The notes under the pieces: generated by a model
Told to the model about the DNA's origin: nothing
Databases searched by the model: none
The model's input: only the letters and a program-made list of their open reading frames with translations
Origin: Tepidibacter aestuarii
GTDB taxonomy: Bacteria; Bacillota; Clostridia; Peptostreptococcales; Peptostreptococcaceae
Direction of reading: 5' to 3'
Length of the DNA stretch: 64,000 nucleotides
Assembly (NCBI RefSeq): GCF_934924865.1
Contig: NZ_OW235315.1
Span: 2,480,001-2,544,000 of the forward strand
In this document: one piece after another, positions 10,707 to 44,429 of the stretch
How the letters are laid out: every line of letters starts with the position of its first letter
How positions within the stretch are numbered: the first letter of the stretch is position 1
Position numbers and translations under genes: made by a program

Positions 10707-11798
10707 ATGAATAAAGAAGTTATTTCAGATAAACAAGGTATATGTCTTATAACATTATTTATAACAGGAAGTACTTTTGTAATGGGTATTGGCGGTGAAG
10801 CTGAAAAAGACTCATGGTTAGCTATTATATTATCAACTCTGTTTGCATTTCCGATATTAATGATTTATGCTCGACTTCTTTCTCTTTTCCCAAAAAAAGA
10901 CCTATTTGATATTTTTGAAATAATTTTTGGTAAGTTTATTGGAAAATTTATTAGTATATTATACATTTGGTTTTCATTACATTTAGGAACATTAGTTTTA
11001 AGGAATTTTGGAGAATTTATTGTTACAATTTCACTATCCAAAACCCCAATGATTATACTTATGACTTTTATTATTTTTTTATGTACTTGGAGTACAAAAT
11101 GTGGAATAGAGCCTTTGGGTAGATGGGGAGAACTTTTTATATGCTTAATTATATTTCTAGTAATTACAGGAGTATTAGCGTTAGTTCCTAATACAGATAT
11201 TAATAATATTCTCCCTATATTAGATAAAGGAATAAAACCTGTAATCAAAGGAGCTTTTGGTGTCTTTTCATTTCCTTTTGCTGAGACAATTTTGTTTTGT
11301 TTAGTTTTTTCATCATTAAAAGATAATCAATCACCATATAAGGTTTATATATTTGGATTAATAATTGGAGGAGTTATAGTGTTTACAACTTCATTAACTG
11401 AACTTTTAGTATTAGGATCAAATTTATATGGAAATCTATTTTTTCCTGCACAACATGCTCTGTCCAAAGTGAATATTGGTGGTTTTATACAAAGAATTGA
11501 AATAATTACATCTATATCTTTTTTAACTGGAGGATTTATTAAAATAAGTATATGTTTGCTAGGTGCTTGTAATGGAATTGCTAAATTATTTAGTTTCAAT
11601 AACTATAGGTTTATAGTAACCCCTGTTGCAATGTTAATGCTTAATTTATCTTATCTGATATATGATAGTATTTTTGAAATGATTGAATGGAGTTTTACGA
11701 CATGGCCCTACTATGCTTTTTTATTTCAAGTTATTTTGCCTGCTACAATATGGATTGTTGCAGAAATAAAACATAAAAAGCACAATAGTTTACACTAG
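10707..11798 (+). CDS. GerAB-type spore germination permease, orphan copy 1
   Basis: A 363-residue integral membrane protein of the APC-superfamily spore permease family, with about ten membrane segments. Characteristic features are the N-terminal ISDKQGI segment before TM1, the conserved loop ILPILDKGIKPVIKGA (about 169-184), and GGFIQRIEIITSISF followed by GGFIKISICLLGA. GerAB proteins form the nutrient-binding channel subunit of Ger receptors in the spore inner membrane, normally with GerAA and GerAC. Neither partner is encoded nearby, so this is an orphan. A close paralogue lies at 27995-29080 with the same motifs. AGGAGAA precedes the ATG. It converges on the B12-activation gene. Confidence 0.82.
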   Translation: MNKEVISDKQGICLITLFITGSTFVMGIGGEAEKDSWLAIILSTLFAFPILMIYARLLSLFPKKDLFDIFEIIFGKFIGKFISILYIWFSLHLGTLVLRNFGEFIVTISLSKTPMIILMTFIIFLCTWSTKCGIEPLGRWGELFICLIIFLVITGVLALVPNTDINNILPILDKGIKPVIKGAFGVFSFPFAETILFCLVFSSLKDNQSPYKVYIFGLIIGGVIVFTTSLTELLVLGSNLYGNLFFPAQHALSKVNIGGFIQRIEIITSISFLTGGFIKISICLLGACNGIAKLFSFNNYRFIVTPVAMLMLNLSYLIYDSIFEMIEWSFTTWPYYAFLFQVILPATIWIVAEIKHKKHNSLH

Positions 11799-11808
11799 TG
11801 CGCTTTTT
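11775..11808. terminator. Possible shared terminator between the convergent GerAB and corrinoid operon ends
   Basis: AAAAAGC (11776-11782) pairs with GCTTTTT (11802-11808) with some further pairing inside, overlapping both stop regions. The stem is imperfect. Confidence 0.55.
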
Positions 11809-12442
11809 AGTAACATTTATTTTTACAGTTCTGACATCTATCTATATTATTCTCCTTTGATCCTATCCCAAATATAACACCTACAGTTTTTATAGGAAAG
11901 AATTGATAATGTTCATTGATTTTAATATCAATATTTTCATCCTTTAATAAATCAAATATTATTCTTTGGCTTGATACTTCAAAATCCCTTTCACCAGGAT
12001 ATATTTCTGCCGATATTTTTAAATCTGATATTTCATTTAAGATATTACATTTTATTTTATCTTTTATATAATCTAGTGCAACTACACCTATTTTATCTAA
12101 TATCATACCTCTTATCATTTCACTATTATTAGTATAATATTTTATCCTATGCTCTATATCTACTCCTATAGTATAAAGTGCTACATAAATACTTTTGCAC
12201 CCTTTTAACCTGTTAAAAACATATTTTCCTTTAAGTATATATTTATTTTCAATAGTTATTTGATTGTTATCATTATCTATTTTAAATTGTTTTAAATATA
12301 TCTTAGGTTTTATAAATTTAGCTGCTGTATTACACTCTTCATCAATTTTTGTTAGTATAATTTCTTGAGGTTTTCTTTTAGAATACCCCAAAAATTTCAG
12401 TACACTATTTTTATCTATGTATATATTCTCGATATTTTTCAT
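11807..12442 (-). CDS. Methionine-synthase-type B12 activation domain protein with Cys-rich tail
   Basis: A 211-residue protein resembling the reactivation domain of cobalamin-dependent methionine synthase. The SAM-binding signature region is seen as AEIYPGERDFEVSSQRIIF (about 146-164), and FFPIKTVGVIFGIG matches the usual M-x-P-x-K-S-V-T-G-I-x-G-I-G. It ends with RCQNCKNKCY, a CxxCxxxC group that could bind a metal or iron-sulfur centre. MetH-like activation domains bring SAM and an electron to cob(II)alamin. As a separate protein after a corrinoid protein and a UroD-type methyltransferase, it probably re-methylates inactivated corrinoid. Its ATG overlaps the previous stop codon by one base, so translation is coupled. 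Confidence 0.78.
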   Translation of the reverse strand: MKNIENIYIDKNSVLKFLGYSKRKPQEIILTKIDEECNTAAKFIKPKIYLKQFKIDNDNNQITIENKYILKGKYVFNRLKGCKSIYVALYTIGVDIEHRIKYYTNNSEMIRGMILDKIGVVALDYIKDKIKCNILNEISDLKISAEIYPGERDFEVSSQRIIFDLLKDENIDIKINEHYQFFPIKTVGVIFGIGSKENNIDRCQNCKNKCY

Positions 12443-13443
12443 TATATCTGTATCCTATCTAATTCTTTATAGTTCATTCTTCCTGTTTTAATTGCACTTT
12501 GTAGATTTTTTACTGGAGTATCATTTAAACAATTACAACCAAAAGCACATAAATAATTATTATTTTGTCTCATAATCTTCATCAACTTTATAGTCTCTTT
12601 TTCTATATCCTCTGGTTTTCCTCTTCCTAAAAGCTCTATAGGATCAAGATTACCTATTAATACAATATCATTCGGTATTTTTGATTTTACCTCTTCGTAA
12701 TTCATAATTTGATCTAAACTTATAGCATCTAAACTACAACTAAGCATATTATCCAATATATCAGAAGTATCTCCACATATATGCATACTCTTCCAGCAAC
12801 TCAGTTCATCGTATATTTTCTCTACATTTGGTACAACATATTTATCAAATCTTTCTGGATTTAACATAACTGCTGCTGGCTCTGACATAGATATAAATTT
12901 AGCACCTGCTTTATTTACCGCTACACTATATCTTCTAACAGTTTCTGTAGTAAACTCTAATAATTTTTCTACAAATTCAGGATTAGTTATTATACTTCTC
13001 AAAAGATGAGTTGCTCCTGCAAGCTGAACTGCCAATGTAAATGGTCCTTGTATAGAAACATACAGAGGTTTTTCTATATTATTTGCTATTAATGACAAGC
13101 TTTCAAGATTAACAGGCATTCTCCCACTTTTATAAGGATCTGGAACTTCATATTTTTTTAATATTTCTATATCTTTAATTGGATGGTTTAATACGCTTGG
13201 GAAGTCATAATCTGACTTTAATATATCAAGTCCCAGCGTTTCACAAAAAATTATTCCATCACAAAATGAATATATAAAATCCGACTCAAATGTTTCATCC
13301 ATAACCTTTGCCATTTCTAGTTGTTTGCTTGGATCTTCATATACATCATAGGCTTTATAATCTGTTAAAAATAGTCCATTAGTTCCCATATCCGGAAGAA
13401 AAAAACCTCTTTCTTCACTATTTATATATTCTAATAAAGTCAT
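12442..13443 (-). CDS. UroD/MtaA-family corrinoid methyltransferase
   Basis: A 333-residue TIM-barrel protein of the uroporphyrinogen decarboxylase superfamily, but not a true HemE. The probable zinc ligands of MtaA/MtbA-like methyltransferases are present: His and Cys in MHICGDTSDI (about 220-230) and Cys in AFGCNCLNDTP near the C-terminus. SIQGPFTLAVQLAG and MSEPAAVMLNPERF are further family blocks. Such enzymes move a methyl group between a substrate or thiol and a methyl-corrinoid protein; UroD-type members also act as O-demethylase methyltransferase I. The corrinoid protein gene lies 2 bases upstream. The methyl donor is unknown. The start follows GGGGGAC. Confidence 0.82.
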   Translation of the reverse strand: MTLLEYINSEERGFFLPDMGTNGLFLTDYKAYDVYEDPSKQLEMAKVMDETFESDFIYSFCDGIIFCETLGLDILKSDYDFPSVLNHPIKDIEILKKYEVPDPYKSGRMPVNLESLSLIANNIEKPLYVSIQGPFTLAVQLAGATHLLRSIITNPEFVEKLLEFTTETVRRYSVAVNKAGAKFISMSEPAAVMLNPERFDKYVVPNVEKIYDELSCWKSMHICGDTSDILDNMLSCSLDAISLDQIMNYEEVKSKIPNDIVLIGNLDPIELLGRGKPEDIEKETIKLMKIMRQNNNYLCAFGCNCLNDTPVKNLQSAIKTGRMNYKELDRIQI

Positions 13444-13445
13444 TT

Positions 13446-14087
13446 TTACAGTCCCCCAATTAATTTATCTACAAGTTTTACAGCTTTTGGAGCATTTTCT
13501 GAATATCCATCAGCACCTATTTCTACAGCATAATTTTTAGTTATACAACCTCCACCTATAATTACATAAGGTTTTTTTTGAATATCAATGCTATTTAGCT
13601 CTTCTATTAATTTTTTCATTTGATTCATAGTAGTAGTCATCATAGATGAAACTGCTATAACCTGAGCTTTTTCCTGTATAGCTGTATCTATTATATCTTT
13701 ATTATCTATGTTTACTCCAATATCTATAACTTCATATCCAGCAGCTTCAAGCATAATCTTTACAATATTTTTTCCTATTTCATGAGTGTCACCTTTTACT
13801 ACAGCAAAAACTACTTTTCCCTTGCTTTTTTTATTTATTTTTCCATAACTTCTTAACACTTCAAGACCCTTATTTAAGGTATCTGCACAAACTATAACCT
13901 CTGGTATATAATATTTTTTGTTTTCAAACAACTCTATAGCTCTGTTCATTCCATAATTTAACCCTTCATTGTAGATATCATCTATATGTATATCATCACA
14001 TTTTAAAGCCTCTATAATTAAATTTTTAATATTTCCTTCTCCCATATTGACTATACAGTCGGAAATCTTTGTTAATACAGCATTCAT
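13446..14087 (-). CDS. Corrinoid (B12-binding) methyl carrier protein
   Basis: A 213-residue protein of the MtaC/MtbC/MttC type. Residues about 1-85 form the helical cap domain; residues 90-213 form the B12-binding Rossmann domain. The cobalt-ligating motif D-x-H-x-x-G appears as GDTHEIGKNI, with His102 as the lower axial ligand. SSMMTTTMNQM (about 147-157) and VIIGGGCIT match the other cofactor-contacting loops. It carries the methyl group between methyltransferases. It is flanked by a GNAT gene and the UroD-type methyltransferase in a tightly packed operon. AAGGGGG precedes the ATG. Confidence 0.92.
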   Translation of the reverse strand: MNAVLTKISDCIVNMGEGNIKNLIIEALKCDDIHIDDIYNEGLNYGMNRAIELFENKKYYIPEVIVCADTLNKGLEVLRSYGKINKKSKGKVVFAVVKGDTHEIGKNIVKIMLEAAGYEVIDIGVNIDNKDIIDTAIQEKAQVIAVSSMMTTTMNQMKKLIEELNSIDIQKKPYVIIGGGCITKNYAVEIGADGYSENAPKAVKLVDKLIGGL

Positions 14088-14102
14088 ATAATATCCCCCT
14101 TA

Positions 14103-15230
14103 TTATTGATAGTTAAGATTAGTAGGCCATACAAAATTTATTGGGAATACATCTTTTATAAACTTTTTAATATGGGGCTTTTCATTTAAAGATTCTTTAT
14201 TAATTTTCCCCTCGAAAAATAACTTATTTAAACTATCTACATTCTCTATCAAAATTTCTTCATCTTTATATTTTATTAGATATTTTCCACTTAAATCTTT
14301 AAACTGGGTATTATCTAAAGTTTTCTTATCTACATATTGAATGAAATAATAATATAAGCTTTTACACAGTTTTTCATAATTTATGATTTTTATAGTTCCA
14401 TGTAAATAGTCTATACAAACCTCATCATATTTTTCTATATGATTTTTATAATCTTTTACATGTACCCAATGATCAATATAATCTAAATCGTACTTATATG
14501 AAAGATAAGAAATAGTATTATGTACATAATTAGGTGCTAAATTTAACTCTATAATTTGTCCTGATTTTTTTCCTTCCTCATCTATTAATCTTATAACTAT
14601 ATATCCAATTAGTTTATCGTCTTTCTTTATTATTAATTTTTTATATGTATAGTTTCCAAATGGTGTTGTAGCAGATTTCAATAATATTTCGAACTGTTCT
14701 TTTGTTCTAAAATATCTTGTAGCGTTTTGATTGTACATTTGCATAATTTCATTTATATATTTCTCATCATATTCTTGTATATCTAAATTTAATGAAATAT
14801 CTTTAGGAACCATAGTATATTTATAGAAGTTTTTGACTTTACTACACATTCTTCTTGTATATAAACTTCTATCCCCCGATATCAATACTATATCTACACC
14901 ATCATCGTACATCTTTTCCTCTACTTTATCTAAGATTTTTGATGAATACCCCTTACCCTCATATTCTCTGCCAGTGCAAACAGCTCCTATTGATGCAACC
15001 TTTACCTTAATTCCTTGTATAAGTACATCTTGAATTAAGTAGTTTACATCAGATACTATTTTTCCATTTTCTTTTATAACAATCATATTCTCTATATTAT
15101 CTTTATTAAGAAGCAGAGGAAATTCCTGCTGCATAGTAGGATTATATTTATTGGATATTCTAAATACTTTATTTATCAGTTTTATAACTTCTTCAAATTC
15201 TTCTATTCTTGCACTTTCTGGGTTTATCAT
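14103..15230 (-). CDS. GNAT acetyltransferase (Eis-like two-domain type)
   Basis: About 375 residues. The N-terminal part carries the acetyl-CoA loop VCTGREYEGKGYSSKIL, with R-x-x-G-x-G-Y, after SIGAVCTG. The region from about 150 to 270 resembles a second, degenerate GNAT fold, as in Eis/YpeA-like two-domain enzymes, and the C-terminal 100 residues form another alpha/beta unit. I chose the ATG at 15230 because AAAGGTG sits 6 bases before it; codons further upstream overlap the ribosome site. It lies 15 bases before the corrinoid gene and 11 bases after the DUF4091 gene. Its substrate may be linked to the imported compound, but this is inference from position. Confidence 0.75.
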   Translation of the reverse strand: MINPESARIEEFEEVIKLINKVFRISNKYNPTMQQEFPLLLNKDNIENMIVIKENGKIVSDVNYLIQDVLIQGIKVKVASIGAVCTGREYEGKGYSSKILDKVEEKMYDDGVDIVLISGDRSLYTRRMCSKVKNFYKYTMVPKDISLNLDIQEYDEKYINEIMQMYNQNATRYFRTKEQFEILLKSATTPFGNYTYKKLIIKKDDKLIGYIVIRLIDEEGKKSGQIIELNLAPNYVHNTISYLSYKYDLDYIDHWVHVKDYKNHIEKYDEVCIDYLHGTIKIINYEKLCKSLYYYFIQYVDKKTLDNTQFKDLSGKYLIKYKDEEILIENVDSLNKLFFEGKINKESLNEKPHIKKFIKDVFPINFVWPTNLNYQ

Positions 15231-15241
15231 TTTCATCACCT

Positions 15242-16984
15242 TTAAATTAAATATTTTTTAATCAATTTGTTTCTCAAATCATTATATTTATTGTAATCTA
15301 GTGAATAGTCCATCTTTACTTTTCTTTCAGGTAAAGCTCTCATTTCTTCTTTACGTCCTAAAAGAGTTTCTATTTGATTTAAAATTTCATCTTTTGATAT
15401 CCCTTTGTTCTCTATTTCCTTAAATATATTAAAGTCTTGAATTCCGAATAAGAAATTCTTATATCTTACACTGTGCATAGGCTCTAAGTTTTTCCCTGGA
15501 TATACAAAGAACATATCTCCAGCAGTCCATCTAGGATACTTATAACTTGCATCTTCAAAAACATTTCTAGGCCATATACCATATGCCCATCTTAAAAATC
15601 CATCAACATCAAAATAATAAGTAAACCATCCTTTAAGTCTACTTTCTATTAGAGGTGATTTTAAGAATATATTAAGTTTTTCTGGGAAGCAACATGAATA
15701 CCAAGTTAAAACTCCACCTCTTTTATTAACTTCTTCTTTTAGCTTTTTTATAGAATCTATATTATTTACGAATTCACAAGTATTGAGAGATAATGATTGT
15801 ATATTCTCACCGTGTTTGTCAAAAAATTCTTGATGGTGAATTGCACATTTATACTTTATTTCATACTCTGGTATAGCTGATTGTATAAAATCAGAGCATT
15901 CTTTAAATATTTGAGCATTATCAGGTTCATCGCTTATTATCTGAACCTTATCCCATAACTCTTTATCTACAAGATGATTAAAAAGTGATGATAAATAATC
16001 TCTTAATTCTTCTCTACTTTTTATATAATCAAAGCATCCATCTTTTTCATCATAATATATAACTCTTAAAGCATCCTTATGTTCTTTTACAGGATTACCA
16101 AATAAAAAAGCATCCCAATTTCCTATTAATCCAAACAAGTTAATCTCTTGTTTTATTCCATATTTAAAACATATATCTATATATCTATCTAATGAAGAAA
16201 AATCACACTGTATTTTACCTTCTTTATTCTTAAATACCTTTACAATATTCATCTCAAATAAATTTGAAAAGTTTTCATGGACTTCAAAACATCTTTGACC
16301 AGCCCACGAATAATCTGTAACTACAAGGTCTATAACTCTTTGACCTAAGTTCCCTAGGTCCTTCATATAGTTATCTATTATTTCAAAGTGCTGATCTGAA
16401 AAATACTCTACATCATATGCTCTTGCCCAGTTGCACAGATGCTGCCATAAATCTAGGAAAAACTCACCTTGTTTAACAGGCTTTAATATGTAATCTATAA
16501 CTTTAATTTCCACTTCTTTTTCTGATACTAGTGTTTCTCTTTCATATCCTTCAGAGTAAAAAGCTTTAATTTTTAATTTAATAGTCTCTTTGTCATAATT
16601 CTCAGGAATTTTTCCCTCTACCCAAATCATCTGATGATCTTTTTGTATATACAAAGACTTTTTATCTAGTATAGGATCTGCTACTAAATTTTTCATATCA
16701 TCTTTTACATATCCTAAAAAGCTCATTTTAAAGTAATCTCTTAAACTATTATCTATATCTAATTCTAAGCGAATTTTATCCCCTAATCCTTTCCAATGAA
16801 CATCGTTTGTTTTTCCCAATTGGCAGAAATAATCTTTATCTAAATTTATAAGAACTTGAAATCCAAATTCTTCTTGTTTTAAGACATTAATTTCTTTCTT
16901 CATTTCTATTAAATTTTCTTCTTGTCCTATTATGTGCTTTGAAGATGAGTCATATAAATTCATATTAAAATTCAAGTTAATCAC
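15242..16984 (-). CDS. DUF4091 glycoside-hydrolase-like protein
   Basis: A 580-residue cytoplasmic protein with no signal peptide. The N-terminal 170 residues look like a beta-sandwich. The remainder matches the DUF4091 type of TIM-barrel glycoside-hydrolase-like proteins, with DLVVTDYSWAGQRCFEVHENF, VQIISDEPDN (candidate acidic catalytic pair), GGVLTWYSCCFPEKLN and GWFTYYFDVDGFLRWAYGIW. Enzymes of this group act on glycosides, but few are characterised. It follows the two ABC permeases by 4 bases, so the substrate is probably cleaved inside the cell after import. The start is unsettled: a TTG at 16975 has better spacing to GGGAG than the GTG at 16984. Confidence 0.78.
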   Translation of the reverse strand: MINLNFNMNLYDSSSKHIIGQEENLIEMKKEINVLKQEEFGFQVLINLDKDYFCQLGKTNDVHWKGLGDKIRLELDIDNSLRDYFKMSFLGYVKDDMKNLVADPILDKKSLYIQKDHQMIWVEGKIPENYDKETIKLKIKAFYSEGYERETLVSEKEVEIKVIDYILKPVKQGEFFLDLWQHLCNWARAYDVEYFSDQHFEIIDNYMKDLGNLGQRVIDLVVTDYSWAGQRCFEVHENFSNLFEMNIVKVFKNKEGKIQCDFSSLDRYIDICFKYGIKQEINLFGLIGNWDAFLFGNPVKEHKDALRVIYYDEKDGCFDYIKSREELRDYLSSLFNHLVDKELWDKVQIISDEPDNAQIFKECSDFIQSAIPEYEIKYKCAIHHQEFFDKHGENIQSLSLNTCEFVNNIDSIKKLKEEVNKRGGVLTWYSCCFPEKLNIFLKSPLIESRLKGWFTYYFDVDGFLRWAYGIWPRNVFEDASYKYPRWTAGDMFFVYPGKNLEPMHSVRYKNFLFGIQDFNIFKEIENKGISKDEILNQIETLLGRKEEMRALPERKVKMDYSLDYNKYNDLRNKLIKKYLI

Positions 16985-16988
16985 TCCC

Positions 16989-17798
16989 TTATCCTTTTAT
17001 CCCAGAAAGAGTAACCCCTTCTACGAATCGTTTTTGCAAAATCAAATAAATTATAAAAGATGGTAAAAAAGTTAATGTAGATCCAGCCATTACCAAGCCA
17101 TAATTAACAGTATATTGAGCATTTAAGCTTGAAAGTCCAACTGTCAATGTTCTAACAGAATCATTAGTTGTAATAATTAACGGCCATAAAAACTCATTCC
17201 ATGCACCTATAAATGTAAATATAGTAAGTGTTATTATTGCAGGCTTTATTAAAGGAACTACTATTTGAAAAAATATACTAATGTCAGAACAACCATCTAT
17301 TCTAGCTGAATCTATTAGATCATTAGGTATATTAAGTATTGCTTGTCTCATTAGAAATATACCAAAAGCAGTTGGTATAGGAAGTATAAGTGCAAGATAA
17401 CTATTAATCCACCCTAATTGTCTCATTATTATATAAAGCGGAATCATAGTTACTTGAGAAGGTATTATAAGTGTCATAATCATAAAGAAAAATATTTTTT
17501 CATTCCCTGGAAATTCTTTTTTTGCAAAAGCAAATCCAGCTAAACTACTAAATAATACATTTAACACTACACCTGATATAGCTATAAATAAACTATTCAA
17601 GAAATAATGCACAAAACTAGTATCTCTAATTATAGTTATATAGTTTTTTAAAGTTATATCAGATAAAGAAAAATCAAAGTTATAAGCTGTATATGTAATC
17701 TTAAAAGATGTTATTACCATATATACAAAAGGAACTATCATACAACTTGCAACCATAAGTAAGACTATGTTCCCAATTATTTGTTTTATGCTTTTCAT
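16989..17798 (-). CDS. Carbohydrate ABC transporter permease (MalG/UgpE-like)
   Basis: A 269-residue inner-membrane permease with six predicted membrane segments. The EAA loop that docks onto the ATPase is visible as DSARIDGCSDISIFFQIVVP followed by LIKPA (about 183-208). The N-terminal SCMIVPFVYMVITSFK and C-terminal FVEGVTLSGIKG ends are typical of CUT1-family MalG-type permeases. It is paired with the upstream permease and a lipoprotein-binding protein. No ATPase gene is present in the unit, which is common in Firmicutes where one MsmX/UgpC-type ATPase serves several importers. AAAGGAGGAA precedes the start. Confidence 0.93.
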   Translation of the reverse strand: MKSIKQIIGNIVLLMVASCMIVPFVYMVITSFKITYTAYNFDFSLSDITLKNYITIIRDTSFVHYFLNSLFIAISGVVLNVLFSSLAGFAFAKKEFPGNEKIFFFMIMTLIIPSQVTMIPLYIIMRQLGWINSYLALILPIPTAFGIFLMRQAILNIPNDLIDSARIDGCSDISIFFQIVVPLIKPAIITLTIFTFIGAWNEFLWPLIITTNDSVRTLTVGLSSLNAQYTVNYGLVMAGSTLTFLPSFIIYLILQKRFVEGVTLSGIKG

Positions 17799-17812
17799 AT
17801 AGTTCCTCCTTT

Positions 17813-18754
17813 TTAGTAAATAGATTTATCCTTTTGAAGTAATTTTCTTTGAAGTATTGATATAATAGCTATTAAAAGAAATAATACATTCGCAACAGCC
17901 ATTGCATACCCAGCTCTAAATTGCTTAAAAACTAAGTTATATATATGTAAAACCATAGTCATAGTAGATACACCAGGCCCTCCACCAGTTAATGTATATA
18001 CAAGATCAAATGTCTGAAGCGACCATATACAACCTAGAAAAACAACCATTATAGTGGTAGGTTTTAAAAGTGGTACAGTTATATAAAAGAATTCATGCAA
18101 TTTGCTCGCTCCGTCAACTCTAGCTGATTCATAATAACTCTTAGGAATATCCATAATTGCTGATATATATATAACCATAAAGTATCCTACATTTTTCCAT
18201 ATAGATATACCCATAAGTGTAGGTAACGCAAGTTTTGGATTTCCTATCCAATTAGGAGCATTAAATCCCAAATGAGTAAAAATTATATTTAGTGGCGATG
18301 TGTCTCCATTAAGAAATATTCTCCATACAATTCCAATAAGTATCATAGAAGATATTACAGGTACAAACATAGCTCCTTTAACAAATTCATTTAGTCTACT
18401 TTTCTCCCTTTTAGTTATCCATACAGCCATTAATAAAGCTATTGAAGTTTGAAGTGGGACAACACCCGCTGTGTATACAATTGTATTTTTAAGTGATGCT
18501 ATAAACATCTTATCTTGAGTAAGATTTAAATAATTCTTAATACCAACGAATTTTGCAGGAGCCATTATATTGTATTTTGTAAAACTAAAATAAACAGACA
18601 TTATTATAGGAATTACATAAAAGCTAATCAACAATATACCTATTGGAAGTATGTACCCATAAGCTGTAGCTTTTTTTAATATTTTTCTTTTATTAAAACC
18701 AAGTAATGTAGGTCTTTTTAAGTCTTCGTTTTTATTTAAAACTATATCTTCCAT
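17813..18754 (-). CDS. Sugar ABC transporter permease (MalF/UgpA-like)
   Basis: A 313-residue permease with six membrane segments after a cytoplasmic N-terminus that includes KRKILKKATAYGY. The EAA loop reads ESARVDGASKLHEFFYITVP followed by LLKP. The LTGGGPGVSTMTMVLHIYN segment near the C-terminus is diagnostic for CUT1 MalF/UgpA-type subunits. It forms the channel with the MalG-type partner encoded 14 bases downstream. AGAGGAG precedes the ATG. Confidence 0.93.
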   Translation of the reverse strand: MEDIVLNKNEDLKRPTLLGFNKRKILKKATAYGYILPIGILLISFYVIPIIMSVYFSFTKYNIMAPAKFVGIKNYLNLTQDKMFIASLKNTIVYTAGVVPLQTSIALLMAVWITKREKSRLNEFVKGAMFVPVISSMILIGIVWRIFLNGDTSPLNIIFTHLGFNAPNWIGNPKLALPTLMGISIWKNVGYFMVIYISAIMDIPKSYYESARVDGASKLHEFFYITVPLLKPTTIMVVFLGCIWSLQTFDLVYTLTGGGPGVSTMTMVLHIYNLVFKQFRAGYAMAVANVLFLLIAIISILQRKLLQKDKSIY

Positions 18755-18848
18755 AAAAATCTCCTCTTTAAGTCTAAATTTTGAATTACCACTTCAAAAT
18801 TCACAGTATATCCTGTAGATTTTGAACTAACAATTCACTATATGAAGA

Positions 18849-18884
18849 TAAGCAGCAAAAATATTTAATATTTTTGCTGCTTAA
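18849..18884 (-). terminator. Intra-operon hairpin after the solute-binding protein gene
   Basis: Perfect arms AGCAGCAAAAATA and complement surround a short loop, 18 bases beyond the binding-protein stop. No strong T-run follows on the minus strand, so it more likely stabilises or partly attenuates the message, letting the binding protein be made in excess over the permeases. Confidence 0.6.
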
Positions 18885-18902
18885 TATTATTATTTATCCA
18901 AA

Positions 18903-20180
18903 TTACTGATCTTCTGCTAATAAATCATTTGCATATTTAGCTGCCTCATCTAAAGCTTCTTTTGGTTCTACTTCTCCAACCATCATTCTTTGCAGCTGCT
19001 TCCATAGGTAATCATAAACCTCAACACCATGAGGAGCTACAACTAATGGTCTATATATTCCTTGATCATTTTCTATCATCTCTTTAAGTCTTGCATCTCC
19101 TTGATATGGTTCATCCTTAGATATTGGAGCTCTCGGATGATATTTATGGAATTTTGTCATAGATTCAGCACTTAACATATGCTGCATTAATTTAAATGAT
19201 AATTCTTTATCATCAGCTGCTGACATTAACGTTAATTGATCAACTGATGCGAATGTTCCCATATCCTTATTTTCTAATGAAGTTATAAATCCATAATTAA
19301 GATCTGGGAATGATTTATCTAGTATTTCAGATGCTGCTGATGAAAGCCAAATTGAGAATGCAGATTTTCCAGGTCCAAACGTAGTTTGTAACATTTCTTT
19401 GTTAGTTTGTGCCATTGCATTATCTGGAATTACTTTATCTTTAAACTTAAGGTCATATAAGAATTGAGCTGCTTCTAATCCCTCTTCATCATTAAATCTT
19501 ACAGTTTTTAAATCGTCGTTATAAAGTTCTCCACCTGCTTGCCATAAAAATCCATACCAGTTCCAGTTAAGATCTCCAAAGAAGTTTGCTCCCCATCCTT
19601 GAGAGAATCCCCACTGATCTATTTTTCCATCTCCATCAGTATCTTTTGTTGCTTTTTTAGCTATTCTTCTGAAGTCTTCCCAAGTTTTTGGAGGTTCTTC
19701 TCCAAGTTCTGCTAATATGTCTTTGTTATAATAAAGAACTGCTGGGTTTGCAGCTTCTATAGCAAGTCCATATATTCCGCCTAACATTTTACAGTCATCT
19801 ATGTATATATAGTTTTCCATATCTTTTTCTGTTAGGTAGTTAGTTAAATCTTCAACTGCTCCCATTTTAATGAATTGTGGGAACATTTCTGCGTACATGT
19901 ATCCAACATCAGGTCCTTCTCCTGCAGCAATTGCAGTTGCATATTTTTCAGGATATCCTTCCCAAGGTATTATTTCCAAATTAATTTTCACATTATTTTC
20001 TTCTTCAAATTCTTTAAGTATAGGCTCCCAAACAGGTTTATCGTTTTCCCCGATAGGAGGTAGCCATACAGTTAACTCTTTTGTCGCTTCTTCTGTTTTT
20101 TCAGTAGAAGTTGATCCACATCCAGCTAGGACAGATACTGTCATAACTAAAATTAAGGCCATGGCAAATAATCTTCTCAT
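18903..20180 (-). CDS. Extracellular solute-binding lipoprotein of a CUT1 sugar ABC importer
   Basis: A 425-residue binding protein with a lipoprotein signal peptide (SVLAGCGSTS, lipidated Cys21). Its first domain contains ELTVWLPPIGENDKPVWEPI and FEEENNVKINLEIIPWEGYP, and AIAAGEGPDVGYMYAEMFPQF follows, all typical of family 1 carbohydrate-binding proteins. Two lobes joined by a hinge are expected outside the membrane. It heads a tightly packed unit with two permeases, DUF4091, GNAT and three corrinoid-methyl-transfer proteins, so its ligand may be a methylated glycoside or related compound (inference). A good sigma-A promoter lies upstream, and AGAGGAGG precedes the start. Confidence 0.92.
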   Translation of the reverse strand: MRRLFAMALILVMTVSVLAGCGSTSTEKTEEATKELTVWLPPIGENDKPVWEPILKEFEEENNVKINLEIIPWEGYPEKYATAIAAGEGPDVGYMYAEMFPQFIKMGAVEDLTNYLTEKDMENYIYIDDCKMLGGIYGLAIEAANPAVLYYNKDILAELGEEPPKTWEDFRRIAKKATKDTDGDGKIDQWGFSQGWGANFFGDLNWNWYGFLWQAGGELYNDDLKTVRFNDEEGLEAAQFLYDLKFKDKVIPDNAMAQTNKEMLQTTFGPGKSAFSIWLSSAASEILDKSFPDLNYGFITSLENKDMGTFASVDQLTLMSAADDKELSFKLMQHMLSAESMTKFHKYHPRAPISKDEPYQGDARLKEMIENDQGIYRPLVVAPHGVEVYDYLWKQLQRMMVGEVEPKEALDEAAKYANDLLAEDQ

Positions 20181-20380: not shown

Positions 20381-20420
20381 TAGAGTTAAGGGTTTAGAAA
20401 AAATCCCTTAACTCTTAATT
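20381..20420 (-). terminator. Intrinsic terminator of glgA
   Basis: Arms AGAGTTAAGGG and CCCTTAACTCT surround a 12-base loop and are followed by a T-run on the minus strand. The hairpin overlaps the glgA stop codon. Confidence 0.88.
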
Positions 20421-44079: not shown

Positions 44080-44429
44080 TGGTGGAGGCGAGGGGAGTCG
44101 AACCCCTGTCCGAAAGCCCTTTCCCTAAAGCTTCTACGAGTGTATCTACTATATTAAGTTCTCGTCTCTCTCAGCGCCTAGTAGCGGGCTCTAAGATCGA
44201 CCAGCCTTAGTTAATCTGTCTTTAGTCAAGGCACCCTAAAGATAGGTCCCCACTTCAATGACGTTCTAGTCTAACCCGTGGGCAAGTTAGGTAGAACGAG
44301 CAGCTATATTAAGCCGCTAAAGCGTAATTATCGTTTGCGTTTATATTTAGTCCCTAGTTTTTACATGTTCTAGAGAAACATGACTCGCTACTCTAAGTTC
44401 CAAACCCCCGTCGAAACCTTTACGCCCCC
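44080..44429 (-). ncRNA. ssrA: Transfer-messenger RNA (tmRNA)
   Basis: A 350-base tmRNA. The tRNA-like ends pair as GGGGGCG (44423-44429) with CGCCTCC before ACCA (44080-44083). The T arm is GGACAGGGGTTCGACTCCCC and the 5' D-like part has AAAGGTTTCGACGGGGGTT. The tag frame begins at GCA (44338) and encodes ANDNYALAA followed by TAA (44309-44311). It rescues stalled ribosomes with SmpB, whose gene ends 5 bases upstream. The 3' CCA is encoded. Confidence 0.97.

Follow-up and report, generated by a model that had tools for sequence, protein, structure and literature searches.

A candidate clostridial salvage operon linking a GH123 glycosidase to corrinoid methyl transfer, with methylated selenosugar as a tentative substrate

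Among the closest known counterparts of the locus examined here are systems of methyl-selenium and methyl-sulfur chemistry. Sdm, a UroD and corrinoid system of methanococci, mobilizes dimethylselenide and is induced by selenium starvation (PMC11097638), and ClMlp2 moves a methyl group from methylcobalamin to selenide (PMC10418091). Selenosugars are among the main forms of selenium that animals excrete, and 1beta-methylseleno-N-acetyl-D-galactosamine is a urinary selenium metabolite (PMC5372522, PMC8211732); the gut flora of rats renders the selenosugar nutritionally available (PMC8211732, citing another study), and the mechanisms by which methylated selenium species are demethylated have been called in need of study (PMC5372522). 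We analyzed a window of 64,000 nucleotides from Tepidibacter aestuarii (contig NZ_OW235315.1; genome G000, C1:2480001-2544000), in which eight open reading frames, all on the minus strand between 11807 and 20180, encode a sugar-binding lipoprotein (SBP), two permeases, a GH123 protein, a GNAT protein, a corrinoid protein (COR), a UroD/MtaA-type methyltransferase (UROD) and an activation protein (ACT) (Table 1). We tentatively read this locus as a salvage operon that would convert a methyl-chalcogen amino-sugar glycoside, most likely 1beta-methylseleno-N-acetyl-D-galactosamine, to selenide, a proposal that we prefer while holding it to be somewhat short of probable. Its basis is the gene content, recurrence and fusions, the conserved active-site residues and the co-occurrence with selenium genes.

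The arrangement of the operon is not due to chance: the same eight genes stand in the same order in another genome of the genus (G062, locus L031; 76-97% identity per gene), and portions of the arrangement reappear in various Clostridia. A CUT2 importer precedes GH123-GNAT-COR-UROD-ACT at locus L044, and a different CUT1 importer, with its ATPase, precedes GH123-COR-UROD-ACT in Peptoclostridium acidaminophilum (L033). Shorter units comprise GH123-GNAT-COR-UROD-ACT in Oceanirhabdus (L054), GH123-COR-UROD-ACT (L049) and a GH123-COR fusion followed by UROD (L050). Among the 120 GH123 homologs listed out of 406, ten are fused to a B12-binding/COR domain, four to a GNAT domain and three to PF18164. 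The two halves are unlinked in Clostridioides, P. litorale and G030, the last having CUT2-COR-UROD-ACT at one site and, elsewhere, a GH123 fused to a GNAT (L076). In Clostridioides, GNAT-COR-UROD-ACT occurs at 8 of 8 loci and GH123 is present in all eight, the importer and GH123 lying at a separate site in both loci inspected (L079, L080). The contig of L044 is labeled 'Lutibacter sp. B2' and bears a clostridial operon (46-78% identity per gene); its label may be wrong. At the Clostridioides loci L034 (1856-7918) and L035, about 2 kb separate GNAT-COR-UROD-ACT from upstream nitrogenase-component-like (PF00148) and iron/B12-type ABC genes, and nitrogenase-like genes lie near COR-UROD in a Syntrophomonadaceae metagenome-assembled genome (MAG; L052, 18512-20988). 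In the Clostridioides genome G006 (L043, 8877-12777), the COR match is split into pieces about 3.3 kb apart, so that the gene looks interrupted.

The halves also keep company at the level of whole genomes. Among 71 genomes of the host family (Peptostreptococcaceae), UROD orthologs (38-100% identity, E 1e-70 or better) occur in 14 and close GH123 homologs in 20; both are present in 13 genomes, UROD alone in one (G033), GH123 alone in seven and neither in 50. Close GH123 is found in 13 of the 14 UROD genomes against 7 of the 57 others (Fisher p = 1.7e-8 by genome; 5/1/3/14 and p = 0.0086 by genus), it being understood that these and the later Fisher values take genomes as independent and that many of them are related. 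Because the halves are linked behind unrelated importers, fused as GH123-COR and co-occurring when unlinked, the data support the view that they functionally belong together. An earlier, sequence-only reading of this DNA had joined sugar import to corrinoid chemistry and named as its undoing a set of related genomes in which the two are never linked; linkage was checked across such genomes and this outcome did not occur.

The DUF4091 protein, which that reading had called simply a hydrolase, belongs to GH123 by its PF13320 domain, by its sequence, which matches BvGH123 and CpNga123, and by its fold, the model (predicted local distance difference test, pLDDT, 92.6) having the same two enzymes as neighbors (TM-score 0.71-0.78). 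Its D352-E353 align with the catalytic Asp-Glu pair of BvGH123, D361-E362. Of five residues that PMC11087588 names as contacting GalNAc in BvGH123, four (W206, W253, Q256 and W482) correspond to W180, W227, Q230 and W486, and the fifth, W306, aligns with N289, adjoining W290; none of W180, W227, Q230, W290 and W486 varies among the 49 aligned homologs. The protein is thus predicted to be a beta-N-acetylgalactosaminidase, and inspection by eye found no signal peptide in it or in its close subfamily. Throughout a 146-row alignment that includes the 120 database homologs, the catalytic Asp is retained, whereas the acid/base Glu is kept in 125 rows and lost in 21 of the 120 listed homologs (Met in 13, His in 4, Val in 2, Gln in 2). 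These losses stand out because, according to PMC11087588, 94% of 734 DUF4091 sequences retain the DE motif and mutating the Glu costs the enzyme its activity. They could be explained if the leaving group departs without being protonated, as a selenolate or a thiolate would. Plant myrosinase is a parallel case of a glycosidase that tolerates loss of the acid/base residue. The GH123-COR fusions would also suit a scheme in which the GH123-fold protein carries out the demethylation, as methyltransferase I of COR, and UROD is the second methyltransferase, and the TIM-barrel fold is common to other corrinoid methyltransferases. This we hold to be far-fetched, because GH123 persists with an importer in genomes without UROD; the catalytic and most of the GalNAc-binding hydrolase residues are, moreover, conserved.

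UROD scores below the cut-offs of the MtaA and MtbA families (MtaA_Meth, 148 of 400 bits; PRK06252, 169 of 244; TIGR01463, 146 of 235) and so falls outside them. Its H221, C223 and C303 align with the zinc ligands of MtaA (4ay7) and form the His-Cys-Cys site of the type 1 mlp cluster; among the 120 UROD homologs listed, H221 and C223 are present in all and C303 in 119, with one gap. Kountz and Balskus assign such a site to S- and Se-methyltransferases, not to O-demethylases (PMC10418091). An additional cysteine, C305, is shared by 119 of the 120 homologs and by the outer relatives from G033, G751, G559 and L052; it is absent from all 10 Mlp-type rows and from the group formed by G466, G583 and G830. 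In a 45-row tree, UROD forms a single group separate from the Mlp-type proteins (support 100/100), some branches being long, and CdmB (9rui) is only a weak match to the UROD profile (E 9e-4). COR has invariant motif residues in 10 of 10 sequences and reaches none of the cut-offs set for named corrinoid subfamilies. The suggestion that the activator is related to the MetH activation domain was upheld: the ACT family profile covers nearly the full length of 1J6R, a SAM-binding (S-adenosylmethionine-binding) activation domain, even though the single sequence has no Pfam match and just 1 of 10 family members reaches PF02965 (E 0.001). We propose that ACT is a SAM-dependent reactivator of COR.

The HxC...C zinc-thiol site, taken with a MetH-type activator, could equally recall methionine synthase, UROD then being a thiol methylase that is fed by COR and converts homocysteine to methionine. 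We consider this very improbable, since the minimal units (COR-UROD or CUT2-COR-UROD-ACT) contain no methyl-donor enzyme and the sugar importers and GH123 are left unexplained.

The zinc site also bears on the substrate first proposed for this operon, an O-methyl or methoxy glycoside that would be imported and then O-demethylated by UROD and COR for one-carbon metabolism. The link to sugar importers fits this idea, as do the L-fucose genes (FucI over cut-off) lying directly upstream of CUT2-COR-UROD-ACT in G030 (L032, 1053-12870) and the folate one-carbon genes and RACE protein in an operon of G033 whose UROD is 38% identical (L038). Yet the site of UROD is His-Cys-Cys, whereas the zinc site reported for O-demethylases contains a carboxylate or is absent (PMC10418091; PMC13222342), and no folate methyltransferase (MTII) is encoded among the eight operon genes, the rest of the genome not having been searched for one. 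On account of the zinc site and of the selenium signals described below, we lower this reading to quite unlikely: the linkage of importer and corrinoid genes proposed in the sequence-only reading stands, through the fusions, the several lineages and the co-occurrence, and its O-methyl sugar for one-carbon metabolism is not supported. In the G033 locus (L038, 5207-17867), a UROD relative, a CUT1 importer, COR, MtaA-type, RACE, cyclodeaminase-type, MetV-like and MetF genes lie in a row, possibly a route from an imported compound to folate. The T. aestuarii genome itself carries an MGC-like cluster elsewhere (L123, G000:C1:2312001-2332000) with activase, MtaA-type, corrinoid and further UroD-type genes, and two further corrinoid/UroD clusters (L124, L125) adjoin ABC transporter genes.

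Both genome content and gene neighborhood point to selenium. In the host class (391 genomes, selD in 89), selD is present in 6 of 6 close-GH123 genomes (E 1e-140 or better) against 83 of the 385 others (p = 1.2e-4), a comparison designed after the selenium idea arose; genomes with a distant GH123 (E 1e-60 to 1e-140) have it in 3 of 18 cases, which is the base rate. Outside the host family, six of seven close-GH123 carriers have selD (G436, G166, G256, G837, G838 and G842) against a base of 82 of 383 (p = 5.5e-4), four of the seven having been located via UROD and not via GH123. UROD relatives of at least 45% identity outside the family have selD in 8 of 9 genomes (p = 3e-5, a value that uses the class base rate, though some relatives fall outside the class). 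In P. acidaminophilum (L033), the operon starts about 0.6 kb from a second selD of the genome, with yedE and a yedF-like gene following; SelD and YedE exceed their cut-offs, and the YedF-like protein falls short. In P. litorale (L051), COR-UROD is flanked on one side by a gene set resembling xanthine dehydrogenase and on the other by yqeC, mocA and yqeB, which are accessory to selenium-dependent molybdenum hydroxylases; YqeC and YqeB score above cut-off, MocA and XdhA beneath it. G751 has a double-cubane protein next to COR-UROD-CUT2; among distant relatives, YedE and a double-cubane protein adjoin the UROD relative in G466 and G583, and a double-cubane protein only in G830. Counted at 40% identity or more, a line chosen after 3 of 54 random windows had given weak paralog matches (29-31% identity), selenium markers occur at 3 of 22 UROD loci (3 of 13 once relatives are merged), 3 of 14 distant UROD loci, none of 5 distant GH123 loci and none of 54 random windows. 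These controls were drawn as 60 windows of 20 kb, of which six were excluded before the count (one overlapped the operon, five overlapped other draws). The excess in the 13 locus groups over the random windows (Fisher p = 0.006; 0.035 with the double-cubane protein left out) is suggestive only, because the marker set was taken partly from the same loci under test.

Several observations weigh against a selenosugar operon. Inside the host family, the presence of selD in 20 of 20 close-GH123 genomes says nothing, because selD is found in 66 of the 71 family genomes (selA in 68); the sole close-GH123 carrier outside the family without selD is G839, a 1.3 Mb MAG. Selenium markers lie within about 10 kb at only three of the 13 locus groups, or two without the double-cubane protein, and at none of 14 unlinked close-GH123 loci. 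Sequence cannot separate a selenium from a sulfur substrate, the operon genes include no methyl acceptor enzyme, and the GNAT is missing from 12 of the 18 genomes checked. A UROD ortholog is wanting in 7 of the 20 family carriers of GH123; importer-GH123 sets without UROD occur in the family (G064, G060, G061, G020) and outside it (G166), and GH123 without UROD also in G029, G044, G038, G256 and G436. Importer and GH123 must therefore be useful without UROD. The outer UROD genomes G033, G449, G751, G559, G840 and G841 have no GH123, and their substrate may therefore differ. Such cases, together with the distinct loci in Clostridioides, G030 and P. litorale, would suit ordinary catabolism of beta-GalNAc glycosides by importer and GH123, with COR-UROD-ACT as a separate methyl-selenium or methyl-sulfur module that often travels along. 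We judge this unlikely in view of the GH123-COR fusions in 10 of the 120 listed homologs, the co-occurrence in genomes even when the halves are unlinked and the recurrence of the association behind unrelated importers.

A sulfur substrate would leave the proposed pathway itself intact: a methylthio-GalNAc glycoside or other S-methyl conjugate would be cleaved, and the methanethiol demethylated or its methyl group passed to a thiol. The His-Cys-Cys site serves sulfur as well as selenium (PMC10418091), and the loss of the acid/base residue in GH123 homologs suits any good leaving group. By itself, sulfur explains neither the co-occurrence with selD nor the SelD/YedE and YqeC/YqeB neighbors. We know, moreover, of no abundant S-methyl glycoside of GalNAc, and rate this alternative as rather unlikely.

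For the preferred selenosugar reading, a retaining GalNAc-specific hydrolase that may manage without its acid catalyst, a GNAT suited to 2-amino sugars, CUT1 and CUT2 importers, a zinc-thiolate methyltransferase and a tie to selenium together would fit 1beta-methylseleno-GalNAc. CUT2 importers carry monosaccharides, and Eis-type enzymes acetylate amino sugars of aminoglycosides. From these elements we infer the identity of the substrate, the direction of methyl transfer and the chemistry of six steps. The ABC importer would take in a monosaccharide-sized glycoside. Where the 2-amino group is free, the GNAT is proposed to acetylate it ahead of cleavage, yielding the acetamido group that would act as the internal nucleophile of GH123. 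GH123 would then cut the beta-glycosidic C-Se bond to give GalNAc and methylselenol. At the His-Cys-Cys zinc site of UROD, the methyl group of methylselenol would pass to Co(I) of COR, and the selenide to SelD and selenoproteins. COR that becomes oxidized would be re-reduced by ACT with SAM, and the methyl group would leave COR via another cellular methyltransferase. A GH123-COR fusion would hold a volatile, toxic intermediate near its acceptor. With a shade more reserve than for the operon as a whole, we suggest that this may be a dedicated pathway, in which the urinary selenosugar and its 2-amino form would be channeled through GH123 coupled to COR to methylselenol and on to selenide, some members having perhaps dropped the acid/base residue since a selenolate leaves unaided.

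Were this correct, enzymes could be named for a step so far lacking in the selenium cycle, the bacterial recycling of a main form of animal selenium excretion; there would be a glycosidase that attacks C-Se bonds and a route through corrinoid from sugar to selenide, and the question would become testable with purified proteins. Should only a version general to sulfur and selenium hold, the joining of a glycosidase with corrinoid methyl transfer would still be new. Among the full-text literature matches listed, no paper connects a corrinoid system with GH123, with the import of sugars or with the cleavage of selenosugars, none treats GH123 together with corrinoid and none names enzymes for the demethylation of methylated selenium. 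The component families are known; their combination and the proposed pathway were not met in those matches.

Of the remaining genes, the GNAT has a confident model (pLDDT 89) whose Foldseek neighbors are Eis-type GNATs (TM-score about 0.6), including a tobramycin complex (4jd6); against solved sequences it gave no match at E 0.01. Three GH123 proteins of 806-817 residues (P0058, P0062, P0065) bear PF18164 instead of a GNAT fusion, which we take to be an acyltransferase-type domain and possibly a second type doing the job of the GNAT. The SBP and two permeases of carbohydrate type make up a CUT1 importer; the nearest solved chains of the SBP are carbohydrate-binding proteins such as 5ci5 and 6rjy, all generic sugar binders. 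Domain searches found no ATPase gene among the eight, and the ATPase is presumably shared with another system.

The order, strand and spacing of the eight genes as first read agree with the list of open reading frames and with the family assignments: from permease 1 to ACT the gaps are 14, 4, 2, 15, 2 and -1 bases, and 148 bases separate the SBP gene from permease 1. The operon is well bounded, because strong hairpins follow both the upstream glgA and the ACT gene. A further strong hairpin lies in the SBP-permease gap and probably serves as an RNA element balancing expression; similar hairpins were found in 6 of 8 such gaps folded, the exceptions being L077 and L080. In the three sequences of the genus that were folded (the window, L031 and L074), this gap (18755-18902) also holds a second extended stem after the first hairpin. 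The single clear promoter once seen at the head of the operon did not survive a scan, the site at 20266-20238 being one of 83 promoter-like sites in the region scanned, against 79.8 +/- 10.0 in shuffled sequences, which is not above chance. The sole Rfam match in the window is a tmRNA (44080-44429), with no riboswitch at gathering score.

Table 1. Genes and RNA hairpins of the T. aestuarii operon, with positions in the window.
Feature	Coordinates	Strand	Evidence or remark
SBP, lipoprotein sugar-binding protein of CUT1-type ABC importer	18903..20180	-	PF01547 E 6e-35
Permease 1, CUT1 type	17813..18754	-	PF00528 E 1e-17
Permease 2, CUT1 type	16989..17798	-	PF00528 E 4e-20
GH123 (DUF4091/PF13320), predicted cytosolic beta-N-acetylgalactosaminidase	15242..16984	-	PF13320 295 bits (cut-off 23.1); GTG start as listed
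Eis-like GNAT N-acetyltransferase	14103..15239	-	PF13527 E 1e-20
COR, corrinoid-binding methyl carrier, DxHxxG motif (GDTHEIG)	13446..14087	-	PF02607 + PF02310
UROD, UroD/MtaA-type methyltransferase	12442..13443	-	PF01208 E 7e-53; MtaA 4ay7 E 2e-27
ACT, stand-alone MetH-activation-like protein, Cys-rich C-terminus	11807..12442	-	profile to 1J6R (T. maritima) E 1.1e-16
Hairpin in SBP-permease gap	18849..18883	-	16-pair stem, z -5.1
Terminator-like hairpin at operon end	11770..11810	-	z -5.0; converges with + strand gene ending 11798
Terminator-like hairpin after glgA, upstream operon boundary	20382..20415	-	z -4.4

Compared with known systems, the operon shares single features with several. The GH123 enzymes NgaP, CpNga123 and BvGH123 have the same fold, the DE catalytic motif and most of the GalNAc-pocket residues of the window protein, whereas members of the close subfamily are encoded together with corrinoid proteins and GNATs or joined to them in one protein, and the Glu is lost in 21 of the 120 listed homologs. 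ACT stands alone, as does Thermotoga 1J6R, which its profile matches over the full length, but it is encoded with an MtaA-like system and not with MetH, and has a Cys-rich C-terminus. The O-demethylase and chloromethane systems (MtvB, OdmB, VdmB, CmuA, CdmB) likewise pair a UroD-superfamily methyltransferase with a corrinoid protein; they include a folate MTII, which the eight genes do not. PMC13222342 describes CdmB as lacking zinc and certain O-demethylases as having zinc sites of another kind, whereas the His-Cys-Cys site of UROD has no carboxylate. Sdm of Methanococcus and the type 1 mlp gene clusters, like this operon, combine a UroD/MtaA-like His-Cys-Cys methyltransferase and a corrinoid protein with methyl-selenium or methyl-sulfur chemistry and an association with selenium. 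Type 1 mlp clusters are defined in PMC10418091 by at least two Mlps with a corrinoid protein and a Ram/RACE protein, and neither a glycosidase nor a sugar importer is among the features described there; the window operon has one UROD, of a separate clade with C305, no RACE protein among its eight genes, a MetH-type activator, and a GH123, a GNAT and a CUT1 importer. Judged by sequence and gene content, this operon is a variant of the corrinoid methyl-sulfur and methyl-selenium systems that lies outside both the type 1 mlp clusters and the O-demethylase systems.

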